Source: Saprospiraceae bacterium (lineage in GTDB: Bacteria > Bacteroidota > Bacteroidia > Chitinophagales > Saprospiraceae). From it: a DNA stretch of 47,297 bases. The DNA lies in the NCBI GenBank assembly GCA_027488935.1, contig JAIYAP010000076.1:1-47297 (forward strand). The letters run 5' to 3'. Each line of letters opens with the position of its first letter. Position 1 is the first letter of the stretch. Shown here one piece after another: positions 7,868 through 38,436 of the stretch. Position numbers and translations under genes: made by a program. A model generated the notes under the pieces. That model was not told the DNA's origin, did not search any database, and worked only from the letters and a program-made list of their open reading frames with translations.

Positions 7868-8642
7868 ACTAAATGAAATACTACAAGCATATCCCGAGCC
7901 GCTTCGAATCCATCGAAGCTTCATTTTGCGTGAATATTTGCAGTATAAAATTTTGGAAATTTTATTCGACGGCCCTTTTGCCTCTAAATTTTGTTTTTTA
8001 GGTGGTACTTGTTTACGGTTAGTGCATAACAATACGCGATTTTCTGAAGATTTAGACTTTGATAACTTTCAAATTTCAATACCCTTATTTTCTGAAGTAT
8101 CAGAAAACATTAAGAACAGATTGGAGAAAGAAGGTTACCAGGTTGAAATGAAGCAAATAATCAAAGGGGCGTATCATTGCTATATTCGTTTTCCAGGCCT
8201 TTTGTTTGATCAGGGATTAAGTGGATACCGGGAAGAAAAAATATTAATACAGCTGGATACAGAGCCACAATACTTTGATTTTAAACCAGATACATTTATT
8301 TTAAATAAATTTGATGTTACTACGCGCATATTTACGACCCCGCTGGATTTATTGCTGGCACAGAAGTTTACTGCATTGTGTTTGCGGAAAAAAAGCAAAG
8401 GACGCGACTTTTTTGATATCGTGTTTTTGCTTTCTAAATCCGTTAAACCCAATTATGCCTATCTAAAAATGAAACTGGATGTTTCTAATGCTTCGCAACT
8501 CCTGGAAAAAGTCAAGAATTTATGTGCAAATATCGACCTTGAGGAAATGGTGATGGATGTCCGTTCTTTTCTATTTAATCCAACGGATGAAAAAAAGATA
8601 AGACTGTTCTTATCCATCCTTGAGCAGTCAGATTTAGGTTAA
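7860..8642 (+). CDS. AbiEii-type nucleotidyltransferase toxin
   Basis: A 260-residue member of the nucleotidyltransferase AbiEii/AbiGii toxin family (DNA polymerase beta-like fold). Motif I is GGTCLR (48-53), motif II is SEDLDFD (62-68) with metal-binding acidic residues, and the later KFTALCLRKKSKGRDFFD carries the conserved Lys/Arg/Asp set. AbiEii proteins transfer nucleotides to cellular targets (tRNA in characterised relatives), stop growth and can abort phage infection. The ATG at 7860 is chosen over a TTG at 7854 because it overlaps the antitoxin stop in the usual coupled arrangement. All core motifs are intact, so the toxin is probably functional. Confidence 0.88.
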   Translation: MLKLNEILQAYPEPLRIHRSFILREYLQYKILEILFDGPFASKFCFLGGTCLRLVHNNTRFSEDLDFDNFQISIPLFSEVSENIKNRLEKEGYQVEMKQIIKGAYHCYIRFPGLLFDQGLSGYREEKILIQLDTEPQYFDFKPDTFILNKFDVTTRIFTTPLDLLLAQKFTALCLRKKSKGRDFFDIVFLLSKSVKPNYAYLKMKLDVSNASQLLEKVKNLCANIDLEEMVMDVRSFLFNPTDEKKIRLFLSILEQSDLG

Positions 8643-24032: not shown

Positions 24033-24216
24033 CGAATATTAAGGCGGGTAACTGTTTGTATATCAAGGGCTTTTTATCCTCAAAAACCGCCTGTGGTGCA
24101 GGATATAGATTTATTAATTTTTATTTAACAAACTTAATCAGGGAATTGTAGTTTAATGTTTCGTACCTTAAAGCTTGCGGGTTATTGTACCCATTGTTTT
24201 TATGCATTTTTAAAAA

Positions 24217-25641: not shown

Positions 25642-28074
25642 TTATCCCTTGATGCGCCTTGCTTCCTCTGCAGCAGCGGTTTGGCGTTGGCGGGCCGATT
25701 TTAGAATGTTGTTGCCAAACGTATTCGTCCAACTCAACATGATCACCCTTTCGGCAAATTGGAACGATTCATTGACCCGCAAATTGCTTTCAGGTTGGTT
25801 GGTCACCCCAAACCAATTGGAAGACAAGAACAAATCGGTGGCATTGAGGCGCAGTTTACCCCATTTTTCGCCAAAATCCTTTTGAATGCCAATGTTTGCA
25901 GCACCGGTTGCCCGCCACCGCGCTACCCCCCAGTATCCGGGAGAATTGTAGTTTCCAGAAACCTCCAGCATAAAGTTATTGGGAAGTTTGAAGGAATTTA
26001 CCAGGTTGAAGCCATAATTGGCATTGGATAGTTGAATGTTGCGGCCGTCTATTTTTAGGTTGGTTTCTGAATGGTTGAGAAAGAAATTGTTTTGGATATC
26101 CCAAAATTTGGTCGGATGCAGTGGAAAGGAGAGGTTGGCGCTCCACACTTTGGCATTGGTTAAGTTTTGTGGTCGACTAATTTGGCGGTTGGATTTGGCA
26201 TCCACATAAGGTACGAAAGCAGTAGGGGCGTCCTGAAAACTATAGGCAACCGAAAAATGGAGCGATTTTATCCCGTAATCCAGGCTGACAGCATCGGTAA
26301 ACGAGGGTTGTAACGCCGGATTTCCCCCTTGTAAAGTGGTAGGATCCGAAAAAATGAGCCAGGGTGCCAGCCATTTTATTTGTGGACGGCTAATGCGGCG
26401 GCTATAGGAAAAGTTGAGTGTTTTCGTTTCGGTCAGTTTCCGACCAATAAACAAACTCGGGAACCAGGAGCCATAATTGCGGTCTACCACATTGGGCATT
26501 TCCACCGAACCGAGGTTGGTATTGGTATGTTCGTAGCGCAGACCACCTTTTACATCTGTTTTGCTGTCTAGTATGGCGGTAAAACTGACATAAGCGCCCG
26601 CAACATCTTCATTCAAAATGAATACCGAGGTTTGTTCTGGCATGACAATCCAGTCGCCCGAAAGCGGCAAACTATCTACCCGAACATCATTTTCGAAATA
26701 TAGCACCGTCCATTTTGCACCCGTTTCCAGGTTGAATTTTTCACTAAAACGGTAATTGTAATCGGCTTTTCCGACCGCTGCACGGATGGGTGTTTTTTTG
26801 TTGATGCGCAATTGATACTGCGGAACAGCATATCCGGCGCCGTCTATGTTATTGACAAAATATTGGCTTGGATTGTCTATATTATACTGAATCACATCTG
26901 CATCCAGGTTCAAGGCGGCCCGTTCGGAAAAGTTGTGGGTCAGGTTCGCATTGCCAGAAAACGATTGGTTGTGGTTGGTTTCGGAATTGGGCATGAGCAG
27001 GTGCGCTTGTTCCACGCCATTTTTCTGATAAATAATATCGTTGGAGGCGCGCATGTACCAGTTGCTGTCGAAAAATGTACCCAACACCCCTACAATAGTT
27101 TTTTTGGATATTTGATAATCGGCACCGATGCTGGCGTTGTGCACGCCCGTTGGGGTAAACGGTCGTCGGCTGATGGTGGAGGTTTCCAGGAAATCGGTGC
27201 CGACCTGTACGCCGCGGTAGTTGGTAAATTTTTGTGGATTGATGTTGTAATCGTAGTTGTAATTTCCGAATACGTTTACCTTGTTTTTTCGGAAATTGAA
27301 ATAACCGCCTGCGCCGTATTTTTCGGCAAATCCGTACCCGATGTTGGCCGAATAGCCGCCATTGAACCCGTCATCGGCCGATTTTTTAAGCACAATATTG
27401 ATGATTCCGGCATTTCCTTCCGCCTCAAAATTGGCAGGCGGGGTATGGATGAGTTCGATGCGGTCGACATTGTTGGCATTCATGCCTTGCAACATTTGCA
27501 CCACGGCCTCGCCGGGCAGCCGCGAAACCTTGCCATTAATCATAATAACGACCCCTTCTTTACCGACTAAGGAAATGGTTTTGGACAATCGGTTCACCTG
27601 CACACCGGGCGCGCGCTGCAAAACATCGATCACATTGCCCCCGGCATCATTGATGCTGTTGGCGACGTTTACGACATTGCGATCAATTTTTACTTCGAAT
27701 GGGGGGCGTTTACCCACCACCGTGCCTTCTTGCAATAAGACTGCATTTTGTTCAAGGGTAAATACGCCGAGTGCTTTAACATTTGCGCCAGCATCTACCC
27801 GGAAAATGCTGCTATTTAAGGGGGCAAAACCATACATCTGCGTTTCGATGCGGTAGGCACCGGGTTCTATGGCCTCAATTATAAAACGACCGTCTAAGTC
27901 TGCAATCACCCCTTTTACGAGTGTGCTGTCACTTGCCTGCAACAGTAAGACAGTCGCTTTGGGAAACGGTTGTTTTTGGGGATCTAAGATTTGGCCTGTA
28001 AGTTGGGTTTGGGAAAAAATTGCCTGGTAACAGCAGAGCATGGCCAGGATGACAAGGGTCAAGGAGCGTTTCAT
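25642..28074 (-). CDS. TonB-dependent outer-membrane receptor
   Basis: An 810-residue protein. Signal peptide MKRSLTLVILAMLCCYQAIF, then a carboxypeptidase-regulatory-like domain (LTGQILDPQKQPFPKATVLLL, about 25-110), a plug domain (NSINDAGGNVIDVLQRAPGV, ending in IINIVLKKS) and an outer-membrane barrel of the OMP_b-brl_3 type with repeated aromatic strands. The start at 28074 is chosen to give the signal peptide. It imports or recognises an unknown ligand using TonB energy. No SusD partner follows, so it is not a classical SusCD pair. It is divergent from the phosphonate-type dehydrogenase gene 426 bp away, which makes a shared substrate possible but unproven. Confidence 0.9.
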   Translation of the reverse strand: MKRSLTLVILAMLCCYQAIFSQTQLTGQILDPQKQPFPKATVLLLQASDSTLVKGVIADLDGRFIIEAIEPGAYRIETQMYGFAPLNSSIFRVDAGANVKALGVFTLEQNAVLLQEGTVVGKRPPFEVKIDRNVVNVANSINDAGGNVIDVLQRAPGVQVNRLSKTISLVGKEGVVIMINGKVSRLPGEAVVQMLQGMNANNVDRIELIHTPPANFEAEGNAGIINIVLKKSADDGFNGGYSANIGYGFAEKYGAGGYFNFRKNKVNVFGNYNYDYNINPQKFTNYRGVQVGTDFLETSTISRRPFTPTGVHNASIGADYQISKKTIVGVLGTFFDSNWYMRASNDIIYQKNGVEQAHLLMPNSETNHNQSFSGNANLTHNFSERAALNLDADVIQYNIDNPSQYFVNNIDGAGYAVPQYQLRINKKTPIRAAVGKADYNYRFSEKFNLETGAKWTVLYFENDVRVDSLPLSGDWIVMPEQTSVFILNEDVAGAYVSFTAILDSKTDVKGGLRYEHTNTNLGSVEMPNVVDRNYGSWFPSLFIGRKLTETKTLNFSYSRRISRPQIKWLAPWLIFSDPTTLQGGNPALQPSFTDAVSLDYGIKSLHFSVAYSFQDAPTAFVPYVDAKSNRQISRPQNLTNAKVWSANLSFPLHPTKFWDIQNNFFLNHSETNLKIDGRNIQLSNANYGFNLVNSFKLPNNFMLEVSGNYNSPGYWGVARWRATGAANIGIQKDFGEKWGKLRLNATDLFLSSNWFGVTNQPESNLRVNESFQFAERVIMLSWTNTFGNNILKSARQRQTAAAEEARRIKG

Positions 28075-28500
28075 TGGTTTAAAAGATTTATTGGTTTTAA
28101 AATGGGTACTTTCTGGGTTAACACTCAAAGGTATAAATACATTATAAAGAAGTGTTTAATTCTACATTATTATGCAGTTAACTTTGGCAATCATACTAAG
28201 TGAAGCGGGTAAGGCTGTACCTTTTGGCATACAAAGCGCTGATCGTTGATCTATGGGTTGCGCTACAGCCATTTGGTAAAGTCGGCTTTTCTGCTTTGTT
28301 TTGTCGCAACCACCTAACAGTTCATTTTCAGGTCAGTTTTCGGGTTAATTAGGTGATTAAGGGGCGCTTTTTTCGCAAAAACCGCTTTATAAAGGAATAA
28401 ACGGCCCACAACCGGGTGCCACCGGGCTACTTTGAAGTGAATTTCATATTTATTTAATGTGCTTTTAGCCCCGCGCAAAAGCCAACAAACTTGGTCAAAC
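28075..28500. other. Divergent intergenic region without a gene
   Basis: A 426-bp region between the TonB-receptor and the dehydrogenase genes. I see no credible open reading frame. It contains the receptor's likely promoter (28126-28133) and a short hairpin (28364-28385) with GCG/CGC and TTTTT/AAAAA arms around TCGC. Such a long divergent gap suggests regulatory sites for both genes. Confidence 0.7.
28126..28133 (-). promoter_or_regulatory. Bacteroidota -7 promoter element of the TonB receptor
   Basis: Read on the minus strand this is TACCTTTG, a perfect TAnnTTTG -7 element, 52 bp upstream of the receptor ATG. A good -33 TTG at the expected spacing is not obvious. Confidence 0.5.
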
Positions 28501-29586
28501 ATGCAAACCAGTTCCACTGCGGTCTTTTACGACCATGCGCATCCTTTCGAATTGAAAGACCTTCCGGTGCCGGAATTAAAATCGGGCGAAATTCTGGTGC
28601 GCAACGAATATACAACGCTTTGCAGGAGCGATATTTACACCTACACGGGTCGGCGCATCGAAAAAAATCCAACTATTTTAGGCCACGAAATCGTGGGAAG
28701 AATCGCGGCTTTTGGTCCCGAAGCAGTTGAAGACGACTTAAGTGGTGCAGCAATGCATGTGGGAGACCGCGTAAGTTGGGCCATTTTTTCCAGCAACCCG
28801 GATGCGGAAATCTCCAAAAGGGGTATTCCACAAAAAGCTGATGATCTGTTTAAATACGGGCACGAAAAACTGACCGAAACCAGCACCTTGCATGGTGGTT
28901 TGAGCCAGTACATTATTCTGAAACCGAATACGCCGATCATGAAAATTGATGAAAAGGTGCCATTAAAGGTTGCTGCCATCATCAATTGTGCGGTTGCAAC
29001 CATTGCAGGGGGCATGCGGGTGGCGGGTGATGTGCGGGGTAAAAATGTATTGGTTTCGGGTGCGGGTATGTTGGGCATGATCGCTTGTGCCATGAGCAAG
29101 GCCCAGGGCGCAGCTACCGTGGTTGCTTTGGATATTCATGCGGAACGCCTGGAGACAGCCCTTCAGTTTGGGGCTAACCTTGGATTGCCAGCGGATGGTG
29201 ATTTGCCGGCATTAATGGAAAGCCATTTTAGTAAGTTGAAGCCCATTGATGTAGTGATCGAGGTGAGCGGCGAAGCCACCGCGATGGAAAACACCCTTGA
29301 ATTGATGGGTATTGGCGGAACTGCAGTTTGGTTGGGGGCGACCTTCCCGCAGCGAAAAATTGGCGTGGATGCGGAGAAAATTGTACGTAATTTATACAGC
29401 ATCAAGGGTTTGCATAATTATAACGGAGATGATTTTATCACAGCAGTCCGGTTTATCGAGCAACATTACCAGGATTTTCCATTCGCTGATATGATCCATG
29501 ACCATTTTTGCTTGGATCAGGTAAATGAGGCTTTTGAATATGCCCTTAGCGCCAATCCTTTCCGGGTTGGGGTGCGGATTGGGTAG
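28501..29586 (+). CDS. Phosphonate-associated zinc alcohol dehydrogenase (HpnZ type)
   Basis: A 361-residue medium-chain dehydrogenase. The start at 28501 is chosen because MQTSSTAVFYDHAHPFELKD is a normal family start. Catalytic-zinc ligands are present: Cys41 (LCRSDIY), His62-Glu63 (LGHEIVG) and Cys163 (INCAVATIAGG). VSGAGMLGM near 183 is the NAD(P) Rossmann loop. KYGHE, SIKGLHNYNGDDF and FRVGVRIG resemble the subfamily named for its place in phosphonate-degradation operons (TIGR03366). The four-Cys structural zinc loop is absent: residues 94-116 contain no cysteine. Phosphonate genes downstream (phnZ about 5.8 kb away) support a role there. The substrate is unknown, perhaps a phosphono-alcohol or -aldehyde. 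Confidence 0.85.
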   Translation: MQTSSTAVFYDHAHPFELKDLPVPELKSGEILVRNEYTTLCRSDIYTYTGRRIEKNPTILGHEIVGRIAAFGPEAVEDDLSGAAMHVGDRVSWAIFSSNPDAEISKRGIPQKADDLFKYGHEKLTETSTLHGGLSQYIILKPNTPIMKIDEKVPLKVAAIINCAVATIAGGMRVAGDVRGKNVLVSGAGMLGMIACAMSKAQGAATVVALDIHAERLETALQFGANLGLPADGDLPALMESHFSKLKPIDVVIEVSGEATAMENTLELMGIGGTAVWLGATFPQRKIGVDAEKIVRNLYSIKGLHNYNGDDFITAVRFIEQHYQDFPFADMIHDHFCLDQVNEAFEYALSANPFRVGVRIG

Positions 29587-29595
29587 CCCTTGGGA

Positions 29596-29739
29596 GGTGA
29601 CACCTTGGGAAGGTGACACCTCGGGGAGGTGACACCTCGGGGAGGTGACACCTTGGGAAGGTGACACCTCGGGAAGGTGACACCTCGGGGAGATGACACC
29701 TCGGGAAGGTGACACCTTGGGAAGGTGACACCTCGCCAA
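29596..29739. repeat. 16-bp tandem repeat array with GGTGACACC cores
   Basis: Nine contiguous 16-bp units of the type GGTGACACCTYGGGRA (Y and R vary; unit 7 has GATGACACC; the last is degenerate at its end). Each core, GGTG-A-CACC, is an inverted repeat. The array fills the gap between the dehydrogenase stop and the DUF5690 start. No spacers separate the units. The minus strand has no stop codon in any frame across the array, which creates long spurious reading frames there. Confidence 0.97.
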
Positions 29740-29769
29740 ACAAAAACGGTAGCAACACAACAAACAATA

Positions 29770-31089
29770 ATGAAATTCTTCGACACCAATAAAAAACTAC
29801 ATTTCCGCTCAGAGCTTGTATTCTCCTTGTTTTGCATGTTTGCGGCTTTTATCACCTATTGCAGCATGTATGCATTCCGAAAGCCATTTACGGCCGGAAC
29901 TTATGCGCATTTATCGCTTTGGGGCATCGATTACAAGATCGTATTGATTACTACACAGGTATTTGGATACATGCTGTCCAAATTTATCGGCATCAGGGTA
30001 ATTTCGGAAATGAGTCCGCACAAGCGGATTATGAATATCCTGGGCCTGATAGGTATTGCGTGGGCTGCCTTGTTTCTTTTTGGGATCACGCCTTATCCAT
30101 ATAATTGTATCTGGTTGTTTGTCAATGGATTGCCTTTGGGAATGATTTGGGGATTGGTGTTTGCTTTTTTAGAAGGCAGGCGCAATACCGAGTTATTGGG
30201 TGCGGCCATGAGCATTAGTTTTATTGTAGCTTCAGGTTTGGTAAAAGCAGTGGGTAAATATTTGATTACCGATTGGGGTGTTGCCGAGTTTTGGATGCCG
30301 TTTGGGGTGGGTTTGATCTTTATCTTGCCCTTGTTGCTGGGGGTGTGGATGCTGGGTAAAATGCCCCCACCCTCGCCGGAGGACATCGCTTTGCGTACAG
30401 AGCGGGTACCAATGAACAAAGAACTTCGGAAAGCATTTTTCAAAACATTCGCGCCGGGCATTATACTGCTGATTATCGTGTATATTTCGCTTACGATTTT
30501 CAGGGAGTTGCGCGATAATTTTGCCGTAGAAATTTGGTCTTTGCTTGGTTATCCAAATACGCCTCAGGTGCTGTTGACGGCAGAAATTCCGATTGCAGTG
30601 GGTGTTTTTGCCATTATTGGGGCCATGATTTTCATTAAAGATAATCGAAAGGCTTTTTATGCCAACATCGGCATTGTACTGTTGGGTGGTTTGCTCCTGA
30701 TTTCCGCAACCGCTTTATTTCAGGCAAAAATGCTGCATCCTGCGGCGTGGATGATCCTGGCTGGATTTGCCATGTACCTCTCTTATGTGAGTTTTCACAC
30801 GATGTTGTTTGAGCGCTGGATCGCTTTGTTTCAATACAAAAGCAATATTGGCTTTTTAATGTACGTCACGGATGCGTTTGGGTATTTGGGCAGTGTAGGG
30901 GTGCTATTTTATAAAAATTTTGGCACCAAAGAACAGAATTGGCTAACTTACATTACGTATGTTTCCTATATCGTTGGGGCAATTACGGTCATTTCGACGG
31001 CCATTGCGTTCTTTTATTTCCGGAATAAGGAAATCAGGCTGGGATTGCGGAAGCCGCTTAAATCGGCTCAAACAGGGCTTCCATTGTGA
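29770..31089 (+). CDS. DUF5690-family membrane transporter (MFS-like)
   Basis: A 439-residue integral membrane protein with about twelve hydrophobic helices (for example LVFSLFCMFAAFITYCSMYAF, IILLIIVYISLTIF, WMILAGFAMYLSYVSF). It resembles the uncharacterised DUF5690 family of Bacteroidota, which has a major-facilitator-like layout with a central cytoplasmic loop (MPPPSPEDIALRTERVPMNKELR, about 210-235). The ATG at 29770 is chosen since the upstream open frame is repeat array. It follows the HpnZ-type dehydrogenase in the same direction, and I recall such genes near phosphonate genes in other Bacteroidota, so phosphonate uptake is an inference only. Its 3' end overlaps the convergent gene by 22 bp. 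Confidence 0.8.
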   Translation: MKFFDTNKKLHFRSELVFSLFCMFAAFITYCSMYAFRKPFTAGTYAHLSLWGIDYKIVLITTQVFGYMLSKFIGIRVISEMSPHKRIMNILGLIGIAWAALFLFGITPYPYNCIWLFVNGLPLGMIWGLVFAFLEGRRNTELLGAAMSISFIVASGLVKAVGKYLITDWGVAEFWMPFGVGLIFILPLLLGVWMLGKMPPPSPEDIALRTERVPMNKELRKAFFKTFAPGIILLIIVYISLTIFRELRDNFAVEIWSLLGYPNTPQVLLTAEIPIAVGVFAIIGAMIFIKDNRKAFYANIGIVLLGGLLLISATALFQAKMLHPAAWMILAGFAMYLSYVSFHTMLFERWIALFQYKSNIGFLMYVTDAFGYLGSVGVLFYKNFGTKEQNWLTYITYVSYIVGAITVISTAIAFFYFRNKEIRLGLRKPLKSAQTGLPL

Positions 31090-31505
31090 TTTGATTTTGA
31101 ATTAGGCTTAGATTTCGCCCGCACCCGGTTGTTCTTGGGCAAATGCTCCAATTCTACCAAGCCCAGTACTTCGAGCAAGGGCGGAACATACATGCCAAAG
31201 CGGCCGCGAAATCCTTTTTTTAAGCCATACCAGCCACCGACCGGGTTTTCTGGAGAACGACCCCAGGCTTCTACGGTGCCAACCTTGGGTTCTTTGCCCT
31301 CATCGGCCGCACCCAATTCCATCCAGTCGCCGTGTGTTACCAGCATTTGATGCAGGTCTACCACACAACGCCAGTCGTAATGTAAGGTGGTGGAACCTAC
31401 TTTACATACCAATATGTTTTTATCGGTATCGTGGTACATCGTATATTCGGCTGTACCGGGCGCTGTTTTTAGTGCCCATGGGTTTTCTTTTGTTCCTTGA
31501 TCCAT
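31068..31505 (-). CDS. Conserved hypothetical protein (possible DUF6855)
   Basis: A 145-residue soluble protein. I recognise the pattern from unnamed Bacteroidota proteins (MDQGTKENPWALKTAPGTAEY, HGDWMELGAADEGKEPK, EAWGRSPENPVGGWYG, KGFRGRFGMYVPPLLEVLGL), but not a function. The C-terminal tail (KNNRVRAKSKPNSKSNHNG) is basic and low in complexity and lies partly over the end of the transporter gene. No catalytic motif is clear. Confidence 0.75.
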   Translation of the reverse strand: MDQGTKENPWALKTAPGTAEYTMYHDTDKNILVCKVGSTTLHYDWRCVVDLHQMLVTHGDWMELGAADEGKEPKVGTVEAWGRSPENPVGGWYGLKKGFRGRFGMYVPPLLEVLGLVELEHLPKNNRVRAKSKPNSKSNHNGSPV

Positions 31506-31657
31506 TTTTTAATTTTTAGAAGTTTTTAAAGGCTGGTAAGATATTAAGCGCAATTTGAAATTGTCCTATCTGGCTTCTTGATATCTAAGTTAAATTTTAT
31601 GCACTCATTCGCAAATCGTACCTTGGCAGGTCATTCATTTAGTTTAAAAACCGACTT

Positions 31658-32677
31658 ATGTCCAACGCTCAAAAATACGCCCTCACAGCAGGCGATCTGC
31701 GCAATATGAAACGCCAGTATTTTGAACCCACGGCACCTCAACCTGGCGAAGTGCGGGTGGCCGTAACAGCGATTGGACTCAATTTTGCCGATATTTTTGC
31801 CATTTGGGGCTTGTACGGCGCTACGCCGAAAGGCGAATTTACCCCCGGACTGGAATATGCCGGGCGCATTGACGAAGTAGGGGAGGGCGTTACAAGTGTG
31901 CGCGTAGGCGACCGCGTGATGGGTATTACCCGCTTCGGGGCCTATACGACCCACCTGAATATTGACGCACGTTATGTATTGCCCGTGCCCGAAGCATGGG
32001 ATGACGCCACCGCTGCAGCCTATTTGGTGCAAACTTTAACGGCCTATTATGGCATGGCGACCCTCGGAAATTTACAAAAAGGCATGACCGTACTGATCCA
32101 CAGTGCCGTCGGAGGTGTTGGCCTGCAAGCACTCAAAGTAGCCAAAGCGTACGGTTGCTATACGATTGGAACGATCGGAAGCGCCAGTAAACAAGCATTC
32201 GGTTTGGAACAAGGTTACGACCAAATCATTGTACGTGGCCCCAATTTTGAACAGGATTTGCGTAACGCACTCGATGGCCGACCCCTCGAACTGGTGATGG
32301 ACAGTGTGGGCGGCGATTATTTCAAAATACCCTTGCGCCTGCTGGAACCGATGGGCCGCATCGTCGTTTTCGGCTCGGCGCGGTATGCCAGTCCGGGCAA
32401 CAAACCCAATTATTTGCACCTGTTTTACCAATTTATGACGCGCCCCAAACTGGATCCGCAGAAAATGGTAGAAAAAAATACGGGTGTCCTGGGCTTTAAC
32501 CTGATCTGGCTGTACGAACGCATTGAATTGATGCGCACGCTTTTACAAGAACTGGATACGCTGCAACTGACGCCGCCGCATGTTGGACATCTGTTTTCAT
32601 TTGACAAATTGCCAGAAGCAATCCTGTTGTTTCAAACCGGAAAAACGATGGGAAAAGTGGTGGTTGAAATAAAGTAA
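31658..32677 (+). CDS. Zinc-independent quinone oxidoreductase-like MDR protein
   Basis: A 339-residue medium-chain dehydrogenase/reductase of the quinone oxidoreductase (zeta-crystallin/VAT1-like) type. VRVAVTAIGLNFADIFAIWGLYG and PGLEYAGRIDEVG form the catalytic domain and lack the catalytic zinc Cys and His. VLIHSAVGGVGLQALKVAKAYG is the NADPH loop (about 145-165). DSVGGDYF and GRIVVFGSARY follow. It probably reduces quinones or enones with NADPH. It is in the same direction as the phosphoesterase gene 85 bp downstream, but that gene has its own conserved upstream element. Confidence 0.85.
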   Translation: MSNAQKYALTAGDLRNMKRQYFEPTAPQPGEVRVAVTAIGLNFADIFAIWGLYGATPKGEFTPGLEYAGRIDEVGEGVTSVRVGDRVMGITRFGAYTTHLNIDARYVLPVPEAWDDATAAAYLVQTLTAYYGMATLGNLQKGMTVLIHSAVGGVGLQALKVAKAYGCYTIGTIGSASKQAFGLEQGYDQIIVRGPNFEQDLRNALDGRPLELVMDSVGGDYFKIPLRLLEPMGRIVVFGSARYASPGNKPNYLHLFYQFMTRPKLDPQKMVEKNTGVLGFNLIWLYERIELMRTLLQELDTLQLTPPHVGHLFSFDKLPEAILLFQTGKTMGKVVVEIK

Positions 32678-32683
32678 AATCAC

Positions 32684-32745
32684 AACCTTTACTTAAACTT
32701 AAAACTGGTTCCGCCTGTCAGGTTCCAGTTTTCGCAGACCTTAGC
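32684..32745 (+). promoter_or_regulatory. Shared upstream element of phosphoesterase 1
   Basis: A 21-bp sequence (32684-32704, beginning AACCTTTACTT and holding the tandem ACTTAAACTTAA) is repeated exactly at 35252-35272 before phnZ. In both places ACCTTAGC follows after the same 33-bp spacer (32738-32745 here). ACCTTAGC resembles the Bacteroidota -7 form TACCTTTGC. Identity with fixed spacing in otherwise unlike DNA suggests a regulator site plus core promoter. Confidence 0.7.
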
Positions 32746-32762
32746 CAAAATCACAATTTGAT

Positions 32763-35198
32763 ATGCTAAAGTACTGCATTTGCTTCATCGGGGCCATTCT
32801 GCTTGCCCCCTTTTTCCTCCACGCACAATTGCCTGGAAAATCGAATAACCAAACCGTTATGCTGCCCAATGGCTGGTCGCTCAGCCCTGCTGGACGGTCT
32901 GTGTCCTTGGGCGACTTACCCATGAACATGGCCATTAGTACCAATCAGAAAATGATTGCGGTCACCAACAATGGTCAAGGAGTTCATTCTTTGCAATTGA
33001 TTGATGCCAAAAAGGGAACATTGTTGCACAACCTCGAACTTCCGAGCGCATACCTTGGGCTTGCTTTTGCTGCCGATGATAAAACCTTGTATGTATCGGG
33101 CGGCAACAAAAATGATATTTTGCGGTATAAAGTTGAAAAAAATCAACTCCAATTGGTGGATACCATCAACTTGGGAGCACCTTGGCCCAACCGGATTTCA
33201 CCAACTGGACTTTGTTTGGATGATGCCCGTAATTTGATGTACGTGGTGACCAAAGAAAACAATAGCCTGTATGTGGTGGATACCAAAACCAAAGCAATCC
33301 TCAAGCAGGATTCTTTAGGTAAAGAACTGTTTACCTGCGTGCTTTCTCCTAATAAAAAAGACTTATACATCACCCATTGGGGCGGAAATGAACTGATTGT
33401 GTGGAATACCGAAACCCGTGCCGTACGCGCACGTATCCAGGTTGGCGATAGTCCAAACGACCTGATCCTTACCAAAAATGGCGATTTTGCCTATGTCGCC
33501 TGTTCGGATGATAACGCGGTGAGCATCGTTGATTTGAAAGCCGGGAAAACCATGGAAACCCTCGTTGCTACCTTGTATCCAGAAGCGCCAACAGGTTCAA
33601 CGTCCAACAGTGTAGCCCTGTCGCCTGATGAAAAAACGCTCTATGTCGCTAATGCAGATAACAACTGTCTTGCGGTATTTGATGTTTCCAACCGGAAAAG
33701 CAGCCAGGCCATCGGCTTCATTCCAACCGGCTGGTACCCAACCAGTGTGCGGGTTTTAGGCAAAAACATCTTTGTCGCCAATGGTAAGGGATTTTCGTCG
33801 TTTGCAAACCCAGATGGTCCAAATCCAGTGAACAAAGTGCACAATGTAGCTTACCAAAAAGGTGATAAAGAAACGCTGATGAAAATTCAGTACATCGGCA
33901 ATTTGATGAAAGGTACCCTAAGCATTATTGAAACGCCAAATGCAAAGGAACTGGCCGAATATTCGCGTCAAGTGTACCAAAATACGCCCTATACGAAAGC
34001 GCGGGAGCAAATGGCCGATGGCGAAGCAGGCAACCCCATTCCGCGTAAAATAGGAGAACCATCCCCCATTAAATACGTGTTTTATGTAATTAAAGAAAAC
34101 CGTACCTACGATCAGGTGCACGGAGATATGCCTGAAGGCAATGGTGATTCGAGTTTGTGTATTTTTCCTGAAAAAATTACGCCCAACCAGCACGCAATTG
34201 CGCGGGAATATGTGTTGCTCGACAATTTTTATGTAAACGCGGAAGTCAGCGCCGATGGACATAACTGGAGCATGGCCGCTTACGCCAACGATTATACAGA
34301 AAAAAACTGGGTAACCAGTTATGGCCGCCGAGGAGGCAAATATGTATATGAAGGTCAAAATCCGACGGCATGGCCGAAAAACGGATTTATTTGGGATCAT
34401 TGCAAACGTGCAGGTATTACGTACCGTACGTATGGCGAATTTGCCGACGTTAAAGCCAATATTCCTGCCTTGGAAGGCCATTTTTGCCCTTATTACACCG
34501 GCTGGAACACAGGTGTAAAGGATACCATCCGTTTCGGACAATGGAAACAAGAGTTTGATTCGCTGGTGGCAAAAAATGCATTGCCGCATTTCAACACCGT
34601 TCGGATGGGCAATGACCATACGGAAGGCATGCGCACAGGGCGTTTGACACCCTATGCAATGGTAGCCGACAATGACATGGCGCTGGGTATGTTTATCGAA
34701 CACCTTTCAAACAGTCCGGTTTGGAAAGAGTCGGCCGTGTTCGTGTTGGAAGATGATGCACAAAACGGCTCCGACCATGTGGATGCACACCGTTCTATTG
34801 CTTATGTGGTAAGTCCTTACACCCGCCGCAAGTACGTGGACCATACCATGTACACCACCAGCGCGATGTTGCGCACCATGGAATTGATCCTGGGTATGCC
34901 ACCGATGAGTCAATATGATGCTGCAGCAACGCCCATGTGGCGCAGTTTTACGGCAAAACCTGATTTTACACCGTATAAGTTGCGTCCGAGCACCATCAAT
35001 TTGGACGATCGCAATGCCGCCGTGAATGACCTGAGCCGGCGTTCCGAAATGTTCGATATGAGCCACGAAGACAGTGTACCCGATTTGGAATTCAATGAAG
35101 TGCTTTGGAAAGGGATCAAAGGCGAACACAGTGAAATGCCCGCACCACGCAGGGCGGCATTTTTGAAATATGTACAGGAATTGGGCGACGAAGATTAG
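32763..35198 (+). CDS. Secreted YncE propeller/phosphoesterase fusion, copy 1
   Basis: An 811-residue exported protein. Signal peptide MLKYCICFIGAILLAPFFLHA. Residues about 30-370 form a YncE-like beta-propeller (repeats such as DKTLYVSGG, NSLYVVDT, GDFAYVACSDDNAVSIVDL and KTLYVANADNNCLAVFD). Residues about 435-745 form an alkaline-phosphatase-superfamily phosphoesterase of the PF04185 type: metal-binding E445-N446 in ENRTYDQ, ADGHNWS with the likely nucleophile region, NDHTEG and DDAQNGSDHVDAHRS. Domain length and motifs are complete. It should act outside the inner membrane on phospho- or phosphono-esters; the exact substrate is unknown. It lies just upstream of phnZ and is paralogous to the gene downstream of it. 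Confidence 0.88.
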   Translation: MLKYCICFIGAILLAPFFLHAQLPGKSNNQTVMLPNGWSLSPAGRSVSLGDLPMNMAISTNQKMIAVTNNGQGVHSLQLIDAKKGTLLHNLELPSAYLGLAFAADDKTLYVSGGNKNDILRYKVEKNQLQLVDTINLGAPWPNRISPTGLCLDDARNLMYVVTKENNSLYVVDTKTKAILKQDSLGKELFTCVLSPNKKDLYITHWGGNELIVWNTETRAVRARIQVGDSPNDLILTKNGDFAYVACSDDNAVSIVDLKAGKTMETLVATLYPEAPTGSTSNSVALSPDEKTLYVANADNNCLAVFDVSNRKSSQAIGFIPTGWYPTSVRVLGKNIFVANGKGFSSFANPDGPNPVNKVHNVAYQKGDKETLMKIQYIGNLMKGTLSIIETPNAKELAEYSRQVYQNTPYTKAREQMADGEAGNPIPRKIGEPSPIKYVFYVIKENRTYDQVHGDMPEGNGDSSLCIFPEKITPNQHAIAREYVLLDNFYVNAEVSADGHNWSMAAYANDYTEKNWVTSYGRRGGKYVYEGQNPTAWPKNGFIWDHCKRAGITYRTYGEFADVKANIPALEGHFCPYYTGWNTGVKDTIRFGQWKQEFDSLVAKNALPHFNTVRMGNDHTEGMRTGRLTPYAMVADNDMALGMFIEHLSNSPVWKESAVFVLEDDAQNGSDHVDAHRSIAYVVSPYTRRKYVDHTMYTTSAMLRTMELILGMPPMSQYDAAATPMWRSFTAKPDFTPYKLRPSTINLDDRNAAVNDLSRRSEMFDMSHEDSVPDLEFNEVLWKGIKGEHSEMPAPRRAAFLKYVQELGDED

Positions 35199-35208
35199 AC
35201 GTTTGCTT

Positions 35209-35250
35209 GGCGGTGGGCGTTCGATAATACGGACGCCCATCGCCCTCTTT
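35209..35250 (+). terminator. Terminator-like hairpin between phosphoesterase 1 and phnZ
   Basis: GGCGGTGGGCGTTC (35209-35222) pairs with GGACGCCCATCGCC (35231-35244) with two G-U wobbles and an 8-nt loop, followed by the weak T-tract CTCTTT. It begins 10 bp after the stop, so phnZ probably needs its own promoter. Confidence 0.75.
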
Positions 35251-35251
35251 A

Positions 35252-35313
35252 AACCTTTACTTAAACTTAAAATAAGTTACCCAATTTATTTGTCTATTTT
35301 CTTGCACCTTAGC
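35252..35313 (+). promoter_or_regulatory. Shared upstream element of phnZ
   Basis: The 21-bp copy (35252-35272) is identical to that before phosphoesterase 1, and ACCTTAGC recurs at 35306-35313 after the same 33-bp spacer. The element lies 79 bp before the phnZ ATG and just after the terminator hairpin. Confidence 0.7.
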
Positions 35314-35351
35314 GCAGATACCCAATATCGGGTGGGTTTACAATCCTATTT

Positions 35352-35900
35352 ATGCAGCCAATTGTTTCTGAAATTATTACCCTTTTTAATGAAAAAGGTG
35401 GGTCGATGTATGGCGGAGAGGCCGTTACACAACTTGAACATGCTTTGCAGGGGGCCACGTTAGCCCGCGCACAAGGCGCACCATCCAGCCTGGTTGTTGC
35501 AGCTTTGCTCCATGATATTGGTCATTTATTGCATGATTTACCGCAGAATGCACCCGATGATGGCGTCGATGATGTGCACGAAAATTTGGCTGCCCAGTTT
35601 TTGGCTGCCCATTTTATTCCAGATGTAGTAGAGCCCGTACGCCTGCATGTGGAAGCCAAACGTTACCTGTGCGCTACCGAAAACGGTTATTTGCAACTGC
35701 TTTCGGCGCCCTCTATCCAAAGTTTGGCCTTGCAAGGCGGTCCAATGCACAAAGATGAAGTTGCTGCCTTTGAACAACTACCTTTTTACAAGCAGGCTGT
35801 TCAATTGCGTATTTGGGACGATCAGGCAAAGGATCCATCCATACAAACAGCACCGATTGAATCTTTTGCCGATGATATAGCGACTGCTTTATTGTCGTAA
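35352..35900 (+). CDS. phnZ: PhnZ, 2-amino-1-hydroxyethylphosphonate dioxygenase
   Basis: A 182-residue HD-domain mixed-valent di-iron oxygenase that cleaves the C-P bond of (R)-1-hydroxy-2-aminoethylphosphonate to glycine and phosphate. All iron ligands of characterised PhnZ have counterparts here: His30, His54-Asp55 (LHDIGHL), His76, His99 and Asp156 (RIWDDQAKDP). The lid and substrate residues are also in place: Tyr20 and Glu23 (MYGGEAVTQLEHAL), Lys103 (EAKRYLC) and QGGPM at 128-132. The related TmpB enzymes act on trimethylammonium analogues, so specificity needs care. The partner hydroxylase PhnY is not nearby. The gene sits between two paralogous phosphoesterase genes. Confidence 0.93.
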   Translation: MQPIVSEIITLFNEKGGSMYGGEAVTQLEHALQGATLARAQGAPSSLVVAALLHDIGHLLHDLPQNAPDDGVDDVHENLAAQFLAAHFIPDVVEPVRLHVEAKRYLCATENGYLQLLSAPSIQSLALQGGPMHKDEVAAFEQLPFYKQAVQLRIWDDQAKDPSIQTAPIESFADDIATALLS

Positions 35901-35938
35901 AATGTGCTTTAATACTAAAACCAATTCAATTTTTTGAT

Positions 35939-38377
35939 ATGAAAAAGTACTTCCTTTGGATGCTGCTCCTGTCGCCGCTATGTTTAATGGCGCAAAAACC
36001 GGGCAAAGCAACCGACCCTTCTGTCCTATTGCCCAATGGCTGGTCGCTCAGCCCCGCAGGTCGCTCGCTGGAATTGGGTGATTTGCCGATGAATATTGCG
36101 ATTTCTCCCAACCAAAAATGGATGGCCGTAACCAACAATGGCCAAGGCATGCATTCCTTGCAATTGATTGATGCACAAAAGGGTACGCTGGTGCACAACA
36201 CCTTGATGCCTGCTGGTTGGCTGGGTTTGAGCTTTGCCGCAGATAACAAAACACTGTACGTATCAGGCGGCAACCAAAATGCCATTTTACGCTACACAGT
36301 TGACAACAATCAACTCAAAATCAAGGATACCATCAGCATGGGACAGCCTTGGCCGGTTAAAATTTCTCCAACAGGACTTTGCCTCGACAACCAGCGCAAT
36401 TTACTGTATGTAGTGACCAAAGAAAACAACAGCCTTTATGTCATTGATACCCGGACCAAAGCCGTGGTGCAACGCGATTCCCTGGGCAAAGAACTGTACA
36501 CCTGTGTGCTTTCGCCGAACCGCAAAGAATTGTACATCACACACTGGGGTGGTAATGAATTAATTGTATGGAATACGGATACCCGCAAAGTGGCAAAACG
36601 CGTTGCAGTAGGCGATAGCCCCAATGATGTGGTGGTCAGTAAAAATGGTCAATTTGCGTATGTCGCCTGCTCCGATGACAATGCCGTGAGTGTGGTAGAC
36701 TTGAAAAGTCGCAAAACGGTAGAAACCCTGGTTGCTACCTTATATCCCAATGCGCCAACCGGCTCCACAACCAACAGTGTTGCCTTGTCGGCCGATGAAA
36801 AAACCTTGTACGTCGCCAATGCCGATAACAATTGTCTCGCGGTGTACGATATCAGCAAACCCAAAAGCAGCCGTTCTTTGGGCTTTATTCCAACGGGCTG
36901 GTACCCAACTTGTGTGCGCACGGTTGGTAAGCAAATTTTTGTTGCTAACGGCAAAGGATTTTCTTCATTCCCAAATCCTGCAGGCCCAAATCCACTCAGC
37001 GAAGCGCAAAATGTAGCATATCAAAAAGGGGATATTGAAACCTTGATGAAGGTAGAATACATTGGTAACCTGATGAAAGGCACTTTGAGCATCATCGAAA
37101 CACCTACGGTTGCCAAATTAGCGGAATATACGAAACAGGTGTTCAAAAACACGCCTTATACGAAAGCGCGCGAAAAAATGGCCGATGGCGAAGCGGGTAA
37201 TCCAATTCCACAAAAAGTGGGTGCACCTTCTCCGATTAAGTATGTGTTTTATATTGTAAAGGAAAACCGCACCTACGACCAGGTGTTGGGTGACATGCCA
37301 GAAGGCAACGGCGACAGCAGTTTGTGTTTGTTTCCTGAAAAATATACCCCCAATCAGCACAAGATTTCGCGTGAATTTGTGTTGCTCGACAATTTTTATG
37401 TGAGTGCAGAAGTAAGTGCGGATGGACACAACTGGTCTACCGCAGCCTATGCCAACGATTACACGGAGAAAACCTGGGTAACCAGTTACGGCGGCCGTGG
37501 GGGCGAATATGTGTACGAAGGTCAGAACCCAACGGCTTGGCCAAAAGGCGGCTTTATTTGGGACCATTGCAAACGTGCAGGCATTACGTACCGTACGTAT
37601 GGCGAGTTTGCCGATGATTATAAAGCGAATATTCCTTCCTTAGAGGGCCATTTTTGCCCTTATTTCACTTCTTGGGATACCGATGTAAAAGATACCACCC
37701 GGGTAACACAGTGGAAGCGCGAGTTCGATTCCCTGGTTGCAACCGGTTCTTTGCCGCGCTTGAGTACCTTGCGGTTGATCAACGACCACACAGAAGGGTT
37801 GCGCAAAGGTGCCTTGTCGCCTTTGTCGATGGTGGCCGACAATGACCTGGCCGTTGGCTTGTTTATCGAGCACTTATCGAAAAGTCCGGTTTGGAAAGAA
37901 TCGGCGGTGTTTATCCTGGAAGATGATGCCCAAGATGGTGCCGATCATGTAGATGCACATCGGTCAATTGCATTTGTGGTAAGCCCATACACCCGCCGCA
38001 ACTATGTAGACCATACATTATACAGCACCAGTTCTATGTTGCGTACCATGGAGTTGATTCTTGGATTGGCGCCCATGAGCCAGCATGATGCAGCGGCCAC
38101 CCCCATGTGGCGCTCATTTACGGCAAAAGCCGACTTCAGTCCGTACAAAGCGGTGCCCGCACGGATCAGCCTCGACGATCGCAATGCAGCAGTAAACGAC
38201 CTCAGCCGTCGTTCGGAAGCCTTTAACTTGGCCCAGGAAGACCGCGTTCCGGAGCGCGAGTTCAACGAAGTATTGTGGAAAGCCATCAAAGGCGAACACA
38301 GTGAAATGCCTGCACCCCGCCGTGCCGCATTTTTACAATACCAGCCTGAAGAAGAAGAAGAGGGCGACGAGAAATAA
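35939..38377 (+). CDS. Secreted YncE propeller/phosphoesterase fusion, copy 2
   Basis: An 812-residue paralogue of the protein encoded at 32763-35198, roughly three-quarters identical by eye over its whole length. Signal peptide MKKYFLWMLLLSPLCLMA, YncE-like propeller, then a PF04185-type phosphoesterase with ENRTYDQ, ADGHNWS, NDHTEG and DDAQDGADHVDAHRS all kept, so both copies look active. Differences include a one-residue insertion (ADDYKANIP against ADVKANIP), HGDM changed to LGDM, and an acidic C-terminus (EEEEEGDEK). The start lies 38 bp after the phnZ stop, with TTTGATATG at the start codon as in copy 1. It is probably co-transcribed with phnZ. The duplication suggests different substrates or dose. 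Confidence 0.88.
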   Translation: MKKYFLWMLLLSPLCLMAQKPGKATDPSVLLPNGWSLSPAGRSLELGDLPMNIAISPNQKWMAVTNNGQGMHSLQLIDAQKGTLVHNTLMPAGWLGLSFAADNKTLYVSGGNQNAILRYTVDNNQLKIKDTISMGQPWPVKISPTGLCLDNQRNLLYVVTKENNSLYVIDTRTKAVVQRDSLGKELYTCVLSPNRKELYITHWGGNELIVWNTDTRKVAKRVAVGDSPNDVVVSKNGQFAYVACSDDNAVSVVDLKSRKTVETLVATLYPNAPTGSTTNSVALSADEKTLYVANADNNCLAVYDISKPKSSRSLGFIPTGWYPTCVRTVGKQIFVANGKGFSSFPNPAGPNPLSEAQNVAYQKGDIETLMKVEYIGNLMKGTLSIIETPTVAKLAEYTKQVFKNTPYTKAREKMADGEAGNPIPQKVGAPSPIKYVFYIVKENRTYDQVLGDMPEGNGDSSLCLFPEKYTPNQHKISREFVLLDNFYVSAEVSADGHNWSTAAYANDYTEKTWVTSYGGRGGEYVYEGQNPTAWPKGGFIWDHCKRAGITYRTYGEFADDYKANIPSLEGHFCPYFTSWDTDVKDTTRVTQWKREFDSLVATGSLPRLSTLRLINDHTEGLRKGALSPLSMVADNDLAVGLFIEHLSKSPVWKESAVFILEDDAQDGADHVDAHRSIAFVVSPYTRRNYVDHTLYSTSSMLRTMELILGLAPMSQHDAAATPMWRSFTAKADFSPYKAVPARISLDDRNAAVNDLSRRSEAFNLAQEDRVPEREFNEVLWKAIKGEHSEMPAPRRAAFLQYQPEEEEEGDEK

Positions 38378-38383
38378 AAAAGG

Positions 38384-38436
38384 AGGTGACACCTCCCACT
38401 TTAACACATTCTGTGTTGGAGGTGTCACCTTTTTTT
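38384..38436. terminator. Bidirectional intrinsic terminator with GGTGACACC core
   Basis: AGGTGACACCTCC (38384-38396) pairs perfectly with GGAGGTGTCACCT (38418-38430). An inner AACAC/GTGTT stem lies in the loop. T-run at 38430-38436 on the plus strand and A-run at 38376-38381 for the minus strand. It serves the phosphoesterase gene and the convergent lipoprotein gene. Its core is the same GGTGACACC as in the 16-bp array at 29596-29739. Confidence 0.95.

Follow-up and report, generated by a model that had tools for sequence, protein, structure and literature searches.

The subject of this analysis is a group of genes at positions 28504-38377 of a 47,297-nucleotide stretch of DNA from a Saprospiraceae bacterium, which combines a PhnZ-type oxygenase with two predicted exported phosphoesterases, PE1 and PE2, and is considered here as a candidate locus for phosphonate scavenging (Table 1). 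The whole stretch, called the window below, is contig C43 of a source genome of 6.28 Mb in 88 contigs. An HpnZ-type dehydrogenase, a DUF5690 transporter, an intact phnZ and two fusions of a YncE-type propeller with a PF04185 domain had been proposed in the original prediction, and all of them are present as uninterrupted frames; a quinone oxidoreductase and a DUF6855 gene are additions to that list. The named genes all lie on the plus strand, as had been claimed, except that the DUF6855 gene placed among them runs in the opposite direction.

Table 1. Genes and Pho-box-like sites of the locus and its flank, in window coordinates.
Feature	Position	Strand	Match or remark
HpnZ-like zinc dehydrogenase (medium-chain dehydrogenase/reductase, MDR, family)	28504..29586	+	TIGR03366, 301.4 bits
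DUF5690 protein, predicted transporter of major facilitator superfamily (MFS) fold, candidate inner-membrane aminophosphonate importer	29770..31089	+	PF18943, 541 bits (cut-off 25)
DUF6855 gene	31068..31505	-	223 bits; between DUF5690 and PE1, converging on and overlapping the DUF5690 end
MDR quinone-oxidoreductase-like protein	31658..32677	+	PF00107/PF08240
PE1, YncE-type beta-propeller and PF04185 phosphoesterase fusion, predicted exported	32763..35198	+	PF04185, 44.1 bits (cut-off 23); Lactonase propeller
PhnZ-type HD-domain oxygenase	35352..35900	+	TIGR03276, 220.8 bits (curated cut-off 214.6)
PE2, YncE-type beta-propeller and PF04185 phosphoesterase fusion, predicted exported	35939..38377	+	PF04185, 60.4 bits (cut-off 23); directly 3' of phnZ
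Weak Pho-box-like site before the HpnZ-like gene	28440..28461	+	Position weight matrix (PWM) score 9.7, reached in 5 of 100 shuffles
Weak Pho-box-like site before PE1	32685..32706	+	PWM 9.5, 2 of 100 shuffles
Weak Pho-box-like site before phnZ	35247..35268	+	PWM 9.9, 2 of 100 shuffles; about 20 bases in common with the site before PE1
Outer-membrane beta-barrel protein, divergent from the HpnZ-like gene	25642..28128	-	PF14905, 278 bits

PE1 and PE2 are 77% identical to each other and share the catalytic-looking motifs KENRTYD, SADGH and EDDAQ.G.DHVD.HR with a homologue from a distant locus described below (L065), and residues 643-717 of PE2 match the acid phosphatase of PDB entry 2d1g. Their export, as originally predicted, agrees with the signal-peptide-like starts of both proteins (judged by eye); the predicted place at the cell surface does not hold up as well, and because neither protein has a lipobox, their sequences make a periplasmic location more likely. 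Across the survey of DUF5690 loci described below, 55 of the 64 phosphoesterase rows, which overlap and include some genes cut by contig ends, begin with what looks by eye like a signal peptide. A lipobox was seen, also by eye, in some PA14-type proteins and in most members of PE_B, a second and longer fusion type of about 930 residues with some 40% identity across the region in common. The AlphaFold2 model of DUF5690, built from ten sequences (mean predicted local distance difference test, pLDDT, 87.4), shows a helical MFS fold, and its Foldseek matches include sialin, G6PT/SLC37A4 (target-length TM-score up to 0.75; identity 16-18%) and the galactonate symporter of E. coli. The transport of an organophosphate by G6PT would fit a phosphonate permease, but its Foldseek score does not set it apart from the other matches. 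In Pfam, DUF5690 forms a family of its own, and the window protein matches MFS_1 only below threshold; a DUF5690 profile had no match among PDB sequences at E up to 1, and the word itself was absent from the open-access literature searched.

As for the dehydrogenases, the HpnZ-type gene is present and matches TIGR03366 at a score below the curated cut-off of 328.1 bits, which no homologue in 25 genomes exceeded, and it adjoins DUF5690 at four other places as well (G004, G023, L050 and L081). The quinone oxidoreductase also stays below its cut-off (TIGR02824, 167.6 bits); a relative 72% identical to it shares one contig with DUF5690 and HpnZ in G004. That either protein is PbfF, an NAD-dependent racemase, was rejected, as PbfF belongs to pfam02826 according to the accessible part of its description (PMC12366243) and the window proteins are MDR enzymes. 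In a survey of 80 PhnZ loci, of which 54 were scored and 26 went uncounted because the overlap filter had left them no phnZ frame, HpnZ (above 200 bits at five loci) and HpnW (above 150 bits at six) shared none of the scored loci.

The window resembles the oxidative PhnY-PhnZ pathway of 2-aminoethylphosphonate (AEP) in its PhnZ-type HD oxygenase, which clears the curated cut-off and whose HD metal and substrate motifs align with PDB entries 4mlm (PhnZ) and 6npa (TmpB). It differs in having TmpB as the best PDB match of this protein (135 bits, as against 96 bits for PhnZ) and in lacking a recognised PhnY. A PhnY partner, expected in the original prediction, was not borne out: in 22 Bacteroidota genomes with PhnZ, some of whose PhnZ contigs are short, the search met no PhyH gene in the vicinity of PhnZ, the closest being a fragment in G057 at a distance of some 41 kb, and four of the 22 are devoid of any PhyH. 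NCBIfam calls neither of the source genome's two PhyH proteins (C7 and C85) a PhnY, their best matches reaching 23 and 28 bits, non-PhyH hydroxylases not having been sought; a 74% relative of the C7 protein in G030 scores 28.2 bits on the methylphosphonate hydroxylase model, the cut-off of which is 500. Since no PhyH accompanies PhnZ in these 22 genomes and four of them are without one, the PhnZ of the window probably does not depend on a PhnY encoded nearby.

The genes of the locus occur together in related genomes more often than expected. Among 100 genomes of relatives, the source genome included, PhnZ was found in 25, DUF5690 in 39 and the fusion (counted at E up to 1e-40) in 28; PhnZ was accompanied by DUF5690 in 24 of its 25 genomes (expected 9.8) and by the fusion in 18 (expected 7.0), and DUF5690 and the fusion coincided in 23 (expected 10.9). 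The excess was seen within the genus alone (42 genomes: PhnZ with DUF5690 in 18, expected 13.1; PhnZ with the fusion in 17 of 19, expected 11.3; DUF5690 with the fusion in 22, expected 17.3; p = 0.0003 to 0.002) and in a draw of 247 genomes from the phylum, where the fusion (24 genomes) and DUF5690 (23) met in 8 against 2.2 expected (p = 0.0005, or 0.0017 without the source genome), all these p-values being too small to the extent that relatives share ancestry and are not independent, a point that tells against our interpretation.

Gene neighbourhoods point in the same direction. In the 18 genomes where the fusion is at least 65% identical (two fragments, in G023 and G026, being left out), PhnZ or a PhnX-like gene lies within 6 kb of it in nine and other phosphorus genes in four, namely a PF01663-type gene in three and, in G024, a pair of DUF3419 and methyltransferase genes that we take to be the betaine-lipid genes BtaA/BtaB. 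The order phnZ-PE2 recurs in G004. PE_B lies within the same distance of both HpnW and DUF5690 in five genomes and of HpnW in G016; it has neither within 6 kb in seven others and at two places of the source genome, several of these contigs being short. A member of the same order (L223) carries one run of SusC-SusD-PE_B-phosphodiesterase-PhnZ-PhnXlike-DUF5690-HpnW, and in another family of the phylum (L226) PE_B adjoins DUF5690 and a PhnW that exceeds its cut-off, the PE_B of both being confirmed as PF04185.

In the phylum draw, 20 of the 24 DUF5690 places were examined (left out were two in the source genome and those of G259 and G300) together with 20 control stretches. Of the controls, 19 were taken from the contigs that carry the loci and one (L252) from a different contig of one of the sampled genomes. 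Enzymes of carbon-phosphorus (C-P) bond cleavage (HpnW, PhnX-like, PhnZ or PhnW, by phmmer with a reference set) were present at 15 of the 20 loci and, apart from one 23-bit match, at none of the controls; L228 counted on PhnW alone and L232 on PhnX-like alone, and the three PhnW labels checked exceed their NCBIfam cut-offs while the PhnX-like protein of L232 falls just under (214.9 vs 218.9). A phosphoesterase was found at 13 of the 15 loci with C-P enzymes (lowest score 77 bits), at none of the five without them and at one of the 20 controls (57 bits). The representatives span several families (PF04185 fusions, PF01663 with or without PA14, PF00884, PF00149 and PhoD), in a reference set that was drawn from such loci and misses families outside it in loci and controls alike. 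Beyond the phylum, a contig titled uncultured Chthonomonas (L065), presumably of the Armatimonadota, encodes MFS-HpnW-PE-PhnZ-PhnXlike on one strand in overlapping stop-to-stop frames, HpnW and PhnZ scoring over their cut-offs and PhnX-like below; its phosphoesterase is 33% identical to PE2, keeps the catalytic-looking motifs and is the sole PF04185 fusion among the 54 scored PhnZ loci. The original prediction would have been in difficulty with no conserved neighbourhood, and the opposite is seen: relatives tend to have the fusion, DUF5690 and C-P enzymes in one genome and next to each other, and this co-occurrence and linkage are very unlikely to be a matter of chance.

Some further observations concern these neighbourhoods. 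Contigs titled Comamonas and Akkermansia muciniphila (L052 and L081) hold DUF5690-PhnZ loci like those of Bacteroidota, though such titles may be unreliable. DUF3419 and methyltransferase pairs recur beside DUF5690, HpnW, PhnZ or the fusion at ten loci. Elsewhere in the source genome, HpnW stands with PhnX-like on contig C50, and contig C57 carries SusCD-HpnW-DUF5690, BtaA-BtaB and a gene of the alkaline phosphatase superfamily (PF01676, 24.4 bits). The PF14905 barrel gene has a 94% relative in the same position in G023.

As regards regulation, the Pho-box-like sites of Table 1 make the regions before phnZ, the HpnZ-like gene and PE1 the three best of the 27 intergenic regions of the window by PWM, each of them weak; when the window is scanned from end to end, the top PWM match falls at 8202. 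Over the survey, a direct repeat of period 11 was more frequent upstream of module genes than upstream of others (0.46 vs 0.26), periods 8-10 and 12-15 being near control. The pattern TTAA-N7-TTAA preceded 30 of 95 module genes and 16 of 246 others, mostly SusC (9/18), TonB-dependent transporters (5/8), PE_B (6/12) and DUF5690 (4/12), and was scarce before PE-A (2/13), PhnZ (0/3), HpnW (0/6) and HpnZ (0/2). The sequences on which this Pho-box-like motif was tested are those that had yielded it. It resembles the cyanobacterial Pho box, which is given in the part of the source available as CTTAACCT with a 3-base linker (PMC1906773). A 16-base unit forms a tandem array of 8.8 copies between the HpnZ-like gene and DUF5690 (29592-29735) and is found again at 38384-38430; it was set aside as a regulatory element, since the genome matches it 35 times in forward and 61 times in reverse orientation (96 in all; several near contig ends) against 1 for the reversed pattern.

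Taken together, we give a probability of about 0.55 to the locus being a phosphonate-scavenging island of the kind that Bacteroidota use under phosphorus limitation. In such an island, phosphonate-containing esters, for example the head groups of phosphonolipids or phosphonoglycans, would enter the periplasm, where PE1 and PE2 would hydrolyse the ester and free the aminophosphonate; DUF5690, as an MFS-fold permease, would move this over the inner membrane, and PhnZ would oxidatively cleave the C-P bond of the alpha-hydroxylated aminophosphonate to yield phosphate. Because no PhnY hydroxylase was recognised, the substrate may come pre-hydroxylated, as (R)-1-hydroxy-2-aminoethylphosphonate, or an unrecognised hydroxylase may act, and the HpnZ-like dehydrogenase may turn a related phosphonate, e.g., the other stereoisomer, into the substrate of PhnZ. 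The pairing of exported esterases with C-P-cleaving enzymes recurs in related bacteria and for this reason is probably a real nutrient-scavenging system.

A number of observations weigh against this interpretation. In G031, a fusion homologue of 74% identity is kept without PhnZ, DUF5690 or an HpnW over cut-off; the fusion is likewise found without PhnZ or DUF5690 in G026 (a fragment), G042 and G079, and within the genus it occurs without DUF5690 in G026, G031 and G040, and DUF5690 without the fusion in seven genomes. Of the eight phylum-draw genomes with both, only three (the source genome, G247 and G112) have the fusion close to DUF5690, and in the latter two it is the homologue of 36-38% identity that is close, not the one of 58-59%. 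Neither C-P enzymes nor other counted phosphorus genes lie within 6 kb of the fusion in five of the 18 genomes above (in one of these, G040, a PhnZ fragment upstream fell under the length limit and was not counted), and fusions of 50-65% identity have no C-P enzyme within that distance in any of eight cases, one of them on a contig of 4.9 kb. Three more PF04185-type homologues are encoded in the source genome (C51, C18 and C55), the two that were mapped having no C-P gene nearby. The AlphaFold model of PE2, made from three sequences, is poor (pLDDT 51.7), with confidence mainly in the propeller. No PhnY was recognised beside PhnZ or among the two PhyH proteins of the source genome, and searches with phmmer and the reference set found no further HpnW, PhnX-like, PhnW, SusC, SusD, Bta or PhyH homologue in the window, the lack of SusC, SusD, HpnW, PhnX-like and Bta being the part that counts here. 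Finally, the sole strict TTAA-N7-TTAA of the window, at 24114, is outside the locus.

The main rival, a serious possibility if well short of even odds, is that PE1 and PE2 serve phosphorus starvation in general, as phosphatases or as enzymes of the phospholipase C type, co-regulated with the phosphonate genes by low phosphate and supplying phosphate rather than phosphonates. The neighbouring pairs read as BtaA/BtaB in relatives, the Pho-box-like repeats upstream of module genes and the persistence of the fusion in G031 all agree with it, and general phosphate saving would also account for the Bta genes beside the G024 fusion, at the expense of the phosphonate interpretation. A candidate counterpart is Fjoh_3414, a lipoprotein annotated as 'putative phosphatase' with propeller-type InterPro entries and marked Orphan, for which the first of the change columns in a phosphate-depletion table gives 10.32, in the available portion of the study on 'phosphate utilisation systems' discussed below (PMC8115612). 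Phosphoesterases that merely supplied phosphate would be harder to reconcile with their presence at 13 of the 15 DUF5690 loci with C-P enzymes and none of the five without, and with the packed HpnW-PE-PhnZ-PhnXlike order of L065. Far less probable is a role of these enzymes in stripping the cell's own phospholipids for replacement by betaine lipids under phosphate limitation, with the phosphonate genes as bystanders of the same regulon: PF04185 does include phospholipases C, BtaA-BtaB-PE2 adjoin in G024 (L193) and, in G009 and G025, PE_B has Bta genes no more than 4 kb away, but the signal-peptide-like starts put the enzymes outside the cytoplasm, and Bta homologues are confined to the C57 locus of this genome, outside the window, and none is labelled in L065. 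A chance assembly of unrelated neighbours, which the separate contigs of the HpnZ-DUF5690-QOR (quinone oxidoreductase) and PhnZ-PE2 halves in G004 and the occurrence of the complete order in the window alone might suggest, is the least credible of all and very unlikely in view of the excess co-occurrence in 100 genomes, the fusion lying beside PhnZ or PhnX-like in 9 of 18, phosphoesterases at 13 of 15 loci as opposed to 1 of 20 controls, and repeated linkage in distant lineages.

Returning to the phosphonate-scavenging island, it is best read as a variant of the 'phosphate utilisation systems' of Bacteroidetes, going by the part of their description available (PMC8115612). In Flavobacterium, PusCD loci are described there as co-localised with phosphodiesterases and phosphonate-degrading enzymes, and the original prediction that no such system had been described is in this respect too strong: the concept is already known, and what still stands is that the YncE/PF04185-PhnZ-DUF5690 variant was not met in the open-access literature searched, the terms 'pf04185', 'YncE', 'betaine' and 'MFS' being absent from the main text of that source (PMC8115612). 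The window shares with these systems the predicted exported phosphoesterases PE1 and PE2, and differs from them in its YncE/PF04185 fusions, DUF5690 and PhnZ and in having no SusCD homologue by phmmer, a SusCD pair of this genome being located at the C57 locus with HpnW, DUF5690 and the Bta genes. HpnW-type PbfD enzymes oxidise N-methyl-AEP, and some of them also AEP, to phosphonoacetaldehyde, as far as the available part of their description goes (PMC10590968); clusters with PhnX-like enzymes have their likeness in relatives that carry HpnW (TIGR03364), PhnX-like (TIGR03351) and DUF5690, and in the C50 and C57 loci of the source genome, whereas the window locus has PhnZ and the HpnZ-like dehydrogenase in place of HpnW and PhnX-like. 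An MFS-type permease encoded with phosphonate catabolism also recalls the AEP permease AepP, as outlined in the accessible part of its report (PMC8316502), from which DUF5690 differs as a Pfam family of its own that is tied to the MFS by its predicted fold.

Bacterial release of phosphonates from lipid or glycan esters before C-P cleavage seems to be little described, and no relevant title or abstract pairing phosphonolipids with phospholipases was met in the open-access literature searched. Phosphonates make up a notable share of organic phosphorus and are partly lipid- and glycan-bound. It can be proposed tentatively, as an idea that falls somewhat short of even odds, that loci built around DUF5690 are systems dedicated to the use of phosphonate esters, a phosphorus analogue of polysaccharide utilisation loci. 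Exported diesterases of several unrelated families would each have been co-opted separately to release aminophosphonates from phosphonolipids or phosphonoglycans, while DUF5690 would be a new family of aminophosphonate permeases and PhnZ, with no need of PhnY, would act on head groups that are hydroxylated in nature. The locus offers PE1, PE2 and DUF5690 as concrete proteins on which this could be tested and suggests a function for DUF5690.

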